Positions 48,721-53,675 of a stretch of 64,000 bases of DNA are shown piece after piece; positions within the stretch are counted from its first letter, which is position 1; every line of letters starts with the position of its first letter. A program made the position numbers and the translations under genes. The stretch covers positions 8,357,777 to 8,421,776 of the forward strand of contig NC_091233.1 of NCBI RefSeq assembly GCF_040958095.1, written 5' to 3'. The notes beneath the pieces are model-generated. The model made no database searches. It was given only the letters and a program-made list of their open reading frames with translations, and had not been told where the DNA came from. The DNA comes from Procambarus clarkii. Taxonomy: Eukaryota > Arthropoda > Malacostraca > Decapoda > Cambaridae.

Positions 48721-48846
48721 TTATTAAATATGACCGAAAAAGTAAGATTAATAATTCTAACACGAATTTTCTCAATCTTTCGTACATTACGCTTCACTGT
48801 TGGAGGTAAATCAAAAATCACTTCTCCAAAATTCATTTTTATTTCT

Positions 48847-48899
48847 AGTCTGACGCGACACGGGCGCGTTTCGTAAAACTTATTACATTTTCAAAGACT
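48847..48899 (-). ncRNA. Hammerhead-like fold in the Penelope 3' tail (minus copy)
   Basis: Reverse-complement counterpart of the fold at 53,496-53,548, with the same pairing segments (AGTCT/AGACT ends, ACGCG/CGCGT inner stem). The same two departures from the hammerhead core are present. Confidence 0.25.
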
Positions 48900-49081
48900 T
48901 CACAAATACACAACTGATTAGAACGTATCTCTGATTTTATATCTACATTTGAGTGAGGTGGGAAGGGTGATGTGGCATTAACACAAGACAGAACAGGAGG
49001 GGATATTAATAGGGTATTAAAAGTATCAACACAAGACAGAACAGAAACAATGGGTATTGAATAGAAGTGTTTGTAGAAAGC

Positions 49082-51019
49082 CTATTGGTCCATATTTCTT
49101 GATGCTTCTATATTGGAGCGGAGTCTTGAGGTGGGTAGAATATAGTTGTGCAATAATTGGCTGTTGATTGCTGGTGTTGACTTCTTGATGTGTAGTGCCT
49201 CGCAAACGTCAAGCCGCCTGCTATCGCTGTATCTATCGATGATTTCCGTGTTGTTTACTAGGATTTCTCTGGCGATGGTTTGGTTATGGGAAGAGATTAT
49301 ATGTTCCTTAATGGAGCCCTGTTGCTTATGCATCGTTAAACGCCTAGAAAGAGATGTTGTTGTCTTGCCTATATACTGGGTTTTTTGGAGCTTACAGTCC
49401 CCAAGTGGGCATTTAAAGGCATAGACGACATTAGTCTCTTTTAAAGCGTTCTGTTTTGTGTCTGGAGAGTTTCTCATGAGTAGGCTGGCCGTTTTTCTGG
49501 TTTTATAGTAAATCGTCAGTTGTATCCTCTGATTTTTGTCTGTAGGGATAACGTTTCTATTAACAATATCTTTCAGGACCCTTTCCTCCGTTTTATGAGC
49601 TGTGGAAAAGAAGTTCCTGTAAAATAGTCTAATAGGGGGTATAGGTGTTGTGTTAGTTGTCTCTTCAGAGGTTGCATGGCTTTTCACTTTCCTTCTTATG
49701 ATGTCTTCGATGAAACCATTGGAGAAGCCGTTATTGACTAGGACCTGCCTTACCCTACAGAGTTCTTCGTCAACTTGCTTCCATTCTGAGCTGTGGCTGA
49801 GAGCACGGTCGACGTATGCGTTAACAACACTCCTCTTGTACCTGTCAGGGCAGTCGCTGTTGGCATTTAGGCACATTCCTATGTTTGTTTCCTTAGTGTA
49901 GACTGCAGTGTGGAAACCTCCGCCCTTTTCCATGACTGTTACATCTAGAAAAGGCAGCTTCCCATCCTTTTCCGTCTCGTAAGTGAAACGCAGCACGGAA
50001 CTCTGCTCAAATGTCTCCTTCAGCTTCTGCAGATGTCTGACATCAGGTACCTGTGTAAAAATGTCGTCAACATACCTGCAGTATATGGCCGGTTTCAAGT
50101 TCATGTCGACTAAGACTTTTTGCTCGATGGTACCCATGTAGAAGTTTGCAAACAGGACACCTAGGGGAGAACCCATGGCGACCCCATCTACTTGCTTATA
50201 CATGTGCCCATCCGGGCTCAAGAAGGGTGCCTCTTTAGTACAAGCTTGGAGTAGTTTCCTCAGAATACTTTCTGGCATGTCAAGAGGAGTACAGGCTAGA
50301 TCACGATACACTCTGTCGGCTATCATTCCGATTGTCTCGTCCACAGGTACGTTGGTAAACAGCGATTCTACGTCCAACGAGGCTCTTATCCCTGTGGCCC
50401 GTGTGCCCCGCAGTAAGTCCACAAATTCCTTTGGAGACTTCAGGCTGAAGGCGCAAGGAACATAAGGAGTCAGCAGGCCGTTGAGTCGCTTTGCCAGTCT
50501 GTACGTGGGTGTGGGTATCTGGCTTATGATTGGCCGAAGTGGGTTTCCAGGCTTGTGCGTCTTGACATTTCCATACGCATATCCAGGTTTATATTCCCCA
50601 ATGATCTTTGGCAGGTGGAGTCCGGATTTCTTGGCGTTTACAGTTTCGATCAGTTTGTTGACCTTTGCTTTTAATTCGGCTGTAGTGTCCTTCGTTACCC
50701 TTTGGAACTTAGTTTGGTCAGAGAGTATGATGTTCATTTTCGCCAGATATTCGTCTTTTTTAAGAATGACATATATTGGCGACTTGTCACCTCTCCTGAC
50801 AACTATCTCCTTGTTCTCACGAAGGCTTTTAGCTGCCGCTTTAAGCTCGGGGGACAGTATGGTGCTTCTGTAGTTGCCTCGATTCTTTCCTCCTTCTGCA
50901 ATAAGTTCTGCTTGTAAGGTATCTTTGGTAGTGACCTTCTTTTGTGTCTCGAGGTCGAATATGTCGTCCAACAGAATTTCCAACTCTACTTTCCGGGCCA
51001 TTTCACTCGGTCTGGACAT
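49082..51019 (-). CDS. Penelope-like reverse transcriptase with C-terminal GIY-YIG endonuclease (minus copy)
   Basis: A 645-residue frame that would copy element RNA into DNA at a cut made by its own nuclease. Seen in the sequence: the KTHKPG element at 153-158 followed by RPIIS; RT motif A SLDVESLFTNVP with Asp216; motif B MGSPLG at 282-287; motif C YVDD at 316-319. A GIY-YIG module begins with VVYAF at 531-535, continues with Cys537/Cys542 and TQYIG at 547-551, and has a candidate catalytic Glu607 (CEALHIKK). This order, RT then GIY-YIG, defines endonuclease-bearing Penelope-like elements. The Met at 51,019 is only the first Met after truncation: the frame is open back to the inversion junction at 51,072, so the real N-terminus is missing. 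It differs from the partner copy at residue 336 (Thr here, Ala there). Confidence 0.92.
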   Translation of the reverse strand: MSRPSEMARKVELEILLDDIFDLETQKKVTTKDTLQAELIAEGGKNRGNYRSTILSPELKAAAKSLRENKEIVVRRGDKSPIYVILKKDEYLAKMNIILSDQTKFQRVTKDTTAELKAKVNKLIETVNAKKSGLHLPKIIGEYKPGYAYGNVKTHKPGNPLRPIISQIPTPTYRLAKRLNGLLTPYVPCAFSLKSPKEFVDLLRGTRATGIRASLDVESLFTNVPVDETIGMIADRVYRDLACTPLDMPESILRKLLQACTKEAPFLSPDGHMYKQVDGVAMGSPLGVLFANFYMGTIEQKVLVDMNLKPAIYCRYVDDIFTQVPDVRHLQKLKETFEQSSVLRFTYETEKDGKLPFLDVTVMEKGGGFHTAVYTKETNIGMCLNANSDCPDRYKRSVVNAYVDRALSHSSEWKQVDEELCRVRQVLVNNGFSNGFIEDIIRRKVKSHATSEETTNTTPIPPIRLFYRNFFSTAHKTEERVLKDIVNRNVIPTDKNQRIQLTIYYKTRKTASLLMRNSPDTKQNALKETNVVYAFKCPLGDCKLQKTQYIGKTTTSLSRRLTMHKQQGSIKEHIISSHNQTIAREILVNNTEIIDRYSDSRRLDVCEALHIKKSTPAINSQLLHNYILPTSRLRSNIEASRNMDQ

Positions 51020-53313: not shown

Positions 53314-53495
53314 GCTTTCTACAAACACTTCTATTCAATACCCATTGTTTCTGTTCTGTCTTGTGTTGATACTTTTAATACCCTATTAATATCCCCTCCT
53401 GTTCTGTCTTGTGTTAATGCCACATCACCCTTCCCACCTCACTCAAATGTAGATATAAAATCAGAGATACGTTCTAATCAGTTGTGTATTTGTGA

Positions 53496-53548
53496 AGTCT
53501 TTGAAAATGTAATAAGTTTTACGAAACGCGCCCGTGTCGCGTCAGACT
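53496..53548 (+). ncRNA. Hammerhead-like fold in the Penelope 3' tail (plus copy)
   Basis: Stem I pairs AGTCT (53,496-53,500) with AGACT (53,544-53,548). Stem II pairs GTAA (53,509-53,512) with TTAC (53,519-53,522). GAA follows, then stem III ACGCG (53,526-53,530) with CGCGT (53,538-53,542) and C53543 at the expected cleavage position. The first core strand reads TTGAAAA where a hammerhead needs CUGANGA, so two essential bases differ. Hammerhead ribozymes are known in Penelope-like elements; here I see the fold but a degenerate core, so activity is doubtful. Confidence 0.25.
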
Positions 53549-53675
53549 AGAAATAAAAATGAATTTTGGAGAAGTGATTTTTGATTTACCTCCAACAGTG
53601 AAGTGTAATGTACGAAAGATTGAGAAAATTCGTGTTAGAATTATTAATCTTACTTTTTCGGTCATATTTAATAAT

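Follow-up and report, generated by a model that had tools for sequence, protein, structure and literature searches.

The analysed window comprises 64,000 nucleotides of the crayfish Procambarus clarkii (C84:8357777-8421776 in our genome search of a 4.03 Gb assembly). Its first 24 kb are occupied by a G-rich minisatellite (1-23988; 25-bp units, approximately 952 copies), and an array of a 30-bp repeat with about 572 copies extends over 29394-46607. Between 48720 and 53675 lies a palindrome, which our analysis confirmed to consist of two copies of a Penelope-like element (PLE), both truncated at the 5' end, that face each other head to head within an (AT)n microsatellite. Beside it, at 53760-55557, a second repeat family is found that ends in GTCGTACC, is bordered by (AT)n and includes long inverted repeats as well as CCTAA/TTAGG-like runs; GTCGTACC also borders the (AT)n of other PLE insertions, e.g., at the sister loci L009, L011 and L019.

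Ungapped alignment of the arms (48720-51072 on the minus strand against 53675-51323) yielded 2353 bp each, no indel and two isolated substitutions, which bears out the near-perfect head-to-head palindrome of the original prediction and also its equal arms, at a length of 2353 instead of 2352 bp. The coding difference noticed there, Thr versus Ala, is found at 50014/52381 (A/G; Thr in the minus, Ala in the plus copy), and the other substitution, at 48791/53604 (C/T in element sense), changes a codon of the partial ORF start at the 3' end, which reads Arg in the minus and Cys in the plus copy. The left arm is the minus-strand copy (48720..51072) with an S-type 3' end, as defined below, at its left, while the plus-strand copy (51075..53675) consists of the right arm and 248 partnerless bases of element sequence (51075-51322), with an S-type 3' end at its right. 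The minus copy is indeed the shorter one, and what had been described as a 251-bp spacer of plus-only element sequence resolves into these 248 bases and a two-base filler, CC, at the join (51073..51074). The ORF start is absent from the 5' end of both copies, and judged against the natural tandem unit the plus copy is likewise 5'-truncated. A direct repeat spans the join (51058..51078), as predicted, but its unit GGTCCTCAG (51058-51066 and 51070-51078) measures 9 bp and not 7 bp; such a 9-bp repeat arose by chance in 121 of 200,000 simulated joins, and it may be the trace of a 12-base backward slip of the minus cDNA, followed by renewed copying, ahead of the join. On the outside, both arms stop at the identical 3' base inside (AT)n, in target-side arrays at 48523..48721 (left) and 53674..53773 (right). 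In BLAST the symmetry extends, with gaps, for about 100 bp into these arrays, and the DNA past them differs between the two sides.

An open frame for the same protein is kept in both arms. In the plus copy (51073..53313, plus strand) it encodes 746 residues plus stop, with a reverse transcriptase (RT) followed by a putative GIY-YIG domain, its start missing and its first positions belonging to the filler, and the element part of the minus-copy frame (49082..51072, minus strand) encodes 663 residues plus stop. The RVT_1 profile matched at E=1.8e-6 with 28.2 bits, slightly under the curated cut-off of 29.6, and a solved group II intron-type RT matched the element protein at E=6.2e-5, so that the RT domain demanded of a PLE is present. 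The C-terminal GIY-YIG match in the same ORF reached E=0.004 and 17.9 bits, under the cut-off of 22.6, with the YIG motif recognised by eye. Furthermore, the sister locus L010 contains consecutive units of 2711-2713 bp in tandem (pseudo-LTRs), the arrangement that marks PLEs, and its ORF of 821 residues from ATG crosses the unit boundary. Rfam returned no hammerhead up to E=1 in 48000-54400 or up to E=10 in 53440-53620, and a half-motif GAAAC...GUC is visible by eye at 53522-53542; the Rfam matches obtained in 48000-54400 were located on AT repeats and inverted repeats, below gathering scores, and were rejected. No relatives of the element protein were found in viral and bacterial contig collections, and the 3'-end tag had no match in viral contigs.

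In the plus copy, the stop codon (53311-53313) is followed by 245 bases and then by an ATG opening 39 codons up to the AT array, i.e., the beginning of a next ORF that ends at the S site (53559..53675, plus strand); the same ORF start terminates the minus copy (48720..48836, minus strand). Because the frame in L010 continues into the next unit, the '3' end' of the element is a point approximately 117 nt inside the next ORF, and because the natural unit continues ATATG, its position is uncertain by a few AT bases. Two classes of 3' end were distinguished, both of which adjoin (AT)n. Read outward, the S end runs ...TTTAATAAT and then (AT)n, about 117 nt into the next ORF, while the L end extends the S sequence by up to 41 bases, closes with ...ATACTAAT(AT) before (AT)n and thus reaches up to ORF nt 158. 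A 3' end that falls within the first part of the following ORF, a tail being optional, is a further mark of PLEs. Genome-wide, the exact patterns gave 18,465 L and 16,595 S ends, all abutting (AT)n, and both patterns read backwards as a control gave 0.

The pairing of these ends was assessed on C1:0-25.3 Mb, the stretch covered by the matches listed for both patterns (100 L and 92 S ends). Neighbouring ends within 6 kb were 44 times head-to-head, 11 times tail-to-tail and 8 times parallel; random positions gave 8.5 neighbours of any kind against the 63 observed, and strand shuffles produced 15.8 head-to-head pairs on average and 28 at most, against 44. By type, the head-to-head pairs comprised 38 L+S, four L+L and two S+S, with a mean of 22.3 L+S under label shuffles and none of 5000 shuffles reaching 38. 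This count retains three L+S pairs at 24.98 Mb that resemble copies of one insertion; these dimers (G000:C1:24981135-24989585) have near-equal length, with 1395-1400 bp between end tags, and are probably a duplication of one insertion. Counting against such pairing as the general case, 104 of the 192 ends lie outside any exact head-to-head pair within 6 kb; ends whose partners have mutated may be among them, since the exact pattern would miss such partners. Within this scheme, the S+S pair of the window belongs to a minority class and is an exception to the L+S rule.

A genome search with the 2352-bp arm (best 40 of 3162 candidates scored, 51 matches) showed the head-to-head pair to be one of many, with junctions that mostly differ. 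Twenty 10-kb loci were read, 18 of them independent after L027, a copy of L026 on the same contig, had been dropped and L010 and L014 had been counted once; being the best hits to the arm, these loci favour young, long copies. A head-to-head junction was present in 15 of the 18 (L009, L010/L014, L011, L012, L013, L015, L017, L018, L019, L020, L021, L023, L024, L026 and L028), that of L010/L014 lying in L014 only and being absent from the 10 kb of L010. The remaining three do not fit a two-primer model cleanly, L016 having a short inverted fragment only (U38-210) and L022 and L025 having inverted pieces that are diverged or distant. Both outer 3' ends were read in 13 of the 15 junction loci, the left outer end of L024 being among those unread. 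Together with the window these loci comprise 11 L+S and three S+S pairs (window, L026 and L028) and no L+L pair, the chance of the latter being 0.035. Small variants occur at three outer ends, namely a shorter L in L018 and, in L013 and in L028, one S end that is off by a few bases. On C95, approximately 20 kb apart, the flanks of L010:660-4210 and L014:5791-9351 match in mirror image and the inner parts differ, which represents either a segmental duplication in inverted orientation or a fold-back in the assembly.

Sixteen junctions were compared, from the window, 13 loci, L029 (chosen as a known pair and used for this list only) and a second, older pair in L026; the junction scan halts at single-base differences, and the window, L013 and L029 were therefore re-read. 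Microhomology of 2, 4, 4 and 4 bp was found in four, two are blunt or have a one-base filler, and ten contain a filler of at least 2 bases. The three cases of 4 bp among 16 compare with a chance of approximately 1.6% per join for at least 4 bp and support the microhomology-type joining that had been proposed. Among the seven fillers of at least 7 nt, five consist partly or largely of flanking 7-mers and one of element sequence from elsewhere: coverage by flanking 7-mers exceeded all 300 shuffles for L013, L021 and L023, it was complete for L019 and partial (9/14) for L029 with some shuffle equalling each, the L017 filler matched the element elsewhere at 28 of 31 bases (a count without shuffle control), and for L011 no source was found among flanks or element. 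We take such templated filler to resemble polymerase-theta end joining. The junctions of L015 (position 4139) and L026 (position 4143), on different contigs, are equal within a few bases, reflecting either one event that was copied or a strong stop site, so that not all junctions are independent. Neither at the join of the window nor at the 15 other joins does (AT)n or other target DNA lie between the copies.

Arms within a dimer differ at 43 of 22,771 sites (0.189%) and arms of different loci at 0.257%. Under permutation of partners, P was 0.032 including the window and 0.32 without it; in the latter case, arms of the same pair differed by 0.252% and permuted partners by 0.263%, with 32% of permutations as low. 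Among 42 arm differences, 38 involve an allele unseen in other arms and four have both alleles elsewhere. The family is too uniform for one RNA to be told from two in general. The window arms share five variants absent from every other arm compared, which makes a single source likely for this pair. Additionally, a TATAAATA interruption (AAA) is mirrored outside the element ends, 72 and 71 nt out (within 48640-48720 and 53675-53760), which a copied flank would explain; other interruptions in the AT flanks of the window do not match.

We interpret the palindrome, at a probability of roughly 0.7, as one PLE insertion completed by double target-primed reverse transcription, and a single integration event, as considered in the original prediction, is supported. 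That prediction had made no choice among its mechanisms and did not name priming at both ends, to which its event that 'copied itself twice' comes near. In the proposed sequence, the endonuclease would cut both strands of the (AT)n microsatellite, and each free 3' end would prime cDNA on the element RNA, internally near the ORF start, at S or L, which we infer to be priming sites by analogy with the Anolis PLE. Both cDNAs would then proceed toward the RNA 5' end and halt at variable points, as the truncations indicate, and short-homology end joining would unite their ends head to head, in many cases with a templated filler between them; the junctions are observed directly, and the enzyme is a presumed one. 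Usually one end would be L and the other S, as counted on C1, the window pair having used S twice. Two different, defined 3' ends in one insertion are hard to obtain where one arm is templated by the other, and simple to obtain where each DNA end primes its own cDNA. Moreover, the excess of L+S over same-site pairs implies that the two primings are not independent, the simplest reading being one RNA or one dimeric particle that presents both sites. Tentatively, and with the odds somewhat against it, both ends might prime the same RNA molecule, or a dimeric particle might hold its active sites on S and L, the second polymerase displacing the first cDNA on the shared template, so that the normal product would be an inverted dimer; since two primers cannot share one site simultaneously, most insertions would then have one L and one S.

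The main alternative is that one end primes a cDNA whose 3' end folds back and self-primes a second, outward-running arm, and that this arm is then joined to the opposite side of the (AT)n break. Self-priming of this kind was proposed for Penelope palindromes of Adineta vaga (PMC3846280), the fillers of L013, L021 and L023 resemble fold-back copies of the adjacent arm, and the window arms have five otherwise unseen variants in common, only two differing sites and the mirrored AAA mark 71/72 nt beyond them. A copied arm should, however, keep the 3' end of its template, whereas 38 of the 44 pairs on C1 have different, defined ends. The AAA mark, at first read as a sign of fold-back, is outweighed by the L+S ends of the sister loci. 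Since the S sequence is AT-rich, S could be a preferred joining point, so that the L+S ends are no full refutation; we consider fold-back copying unlikely as the general explanation, and it may have occurred in the window pair, where the S+S ends and the mirrored AAA leave room for it.

The other alternatives are far less probable. Two separate insertions into one microsatellite, homogenised by gene conversion, would accord with (AT)n arrays being hot spots (on C1, no more than 250 bp separates the partners in five of the 11 tail-to-tail cases), but should have left target DNA between the copies, which is missing from all 16 joins, and offer no explanation for the L+S excess. Gene conversion between arms, one of the suggestions made earlier, is also not favoured in view of the recurrence of pairs with mostly different junctions, of arms that stop at defined 3' ends and, without the window, of paired arms hardly closer than permuted partners. 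We give the reading of two insertions made alike in this way very little credence. An assembly artefact, with a mirror-image or fold-back read incorporated into the contig, was likewise suggested earlier and may be exemplified by the mirror-image stretch of L010/L014, yet in the window the arms differ at two fixed sites, the centre is unequal, both arms stop at 3' ends of the element and the flanks beyond them are different, and head-to-head pairs recur at many loci with mostly other junctions, which renders an artefact highly improbable. It is just as hard to believe that the inverted dimer is itself a mobile unit, copied whole: the nearly identical junctions of L015 and L026 and the copies L026 and L027 would suit it, but the position and the filler vary among the remaining junctions examined.

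PLE copies arranged head to head, like tails on one side only, have been described before. The completion of a PLE insertion, a process not settled, is recorded in this genome by 35,060 exact ends, and those examined here indicate that priming usually takes place on either side of the break, in most cases from two distinct sites of the RNA. Inverted copies and tails at one side can thereby be addressed with a two-primer model open to testing, and the element emerges as a major supplier of long inverted repeats to a large genome. If the reading with one shared RNA or a dimeric particle is true, this retroelement would produce palindromes systematically in AT microsatellites. A genome-wide rule of L+S pairing was not found in the literature searched; older Penelope papers in subscription journals lay outside that scope, so it may be in print.

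The following comparisons refer to the accessible parts of the cited reports. As in penaeid shrimps, we are dealing with recently expanded crustacean PLEs, tied to long (AT)n in Litopenaeus vannamei, although the accessible text describes no palindrome or end classes there (PMC7878876). Penelope of Adineta vaga shares head-to-head inverted copies, junction palindromes, 5' truncation, partial tandems and an optional tail (31 bp there) on one inverted pLTR; unlike the crayfish arms of up to approximately 2.7 kb, the stretch inverted there is a pLTR of about 200 bp, and target-site duplications of 8-10 bp occur at some of the inserts (PMC3846280), whereas the crayfish target is (AT)n, within which such duplications are unreadable, with ends in the thousands. 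A curation guide, too, refers to inverted pLTRs and to short extensions at the 3' end (PMC8969392).

The Poseidon element PAc of Anolis carolinensis has tandem units and AT-rich targets like the crayfish element and combines RT and GIY-YIG in one ORF, as is predicted here, and its reverse transcription starts mainly 111-118 nt into the ORF, compared with approximately 117 and up to 158 nt here, the 'tail' being the part between two start sites in both (PMC11167929). The PAc start sites are reported not to be homologous to the cut DNA, whereas the AT-rich last letters of the crayfish S and L pass directly into (AT)n, and the accessible text of that report holds no description of two different start sites paired in one insertion. 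In bulk, the PAc start sites show no strand difference, so that a strand-specific rule is not known for PAc (PMC11167929). Nevertheless, PAc cleaves and extends both DNA strands in vitro and prefers AT-rich DNA (PMC11167929), and by analogy this double-strand activity would fit the priming at both ends that we propose for the crayfish element.
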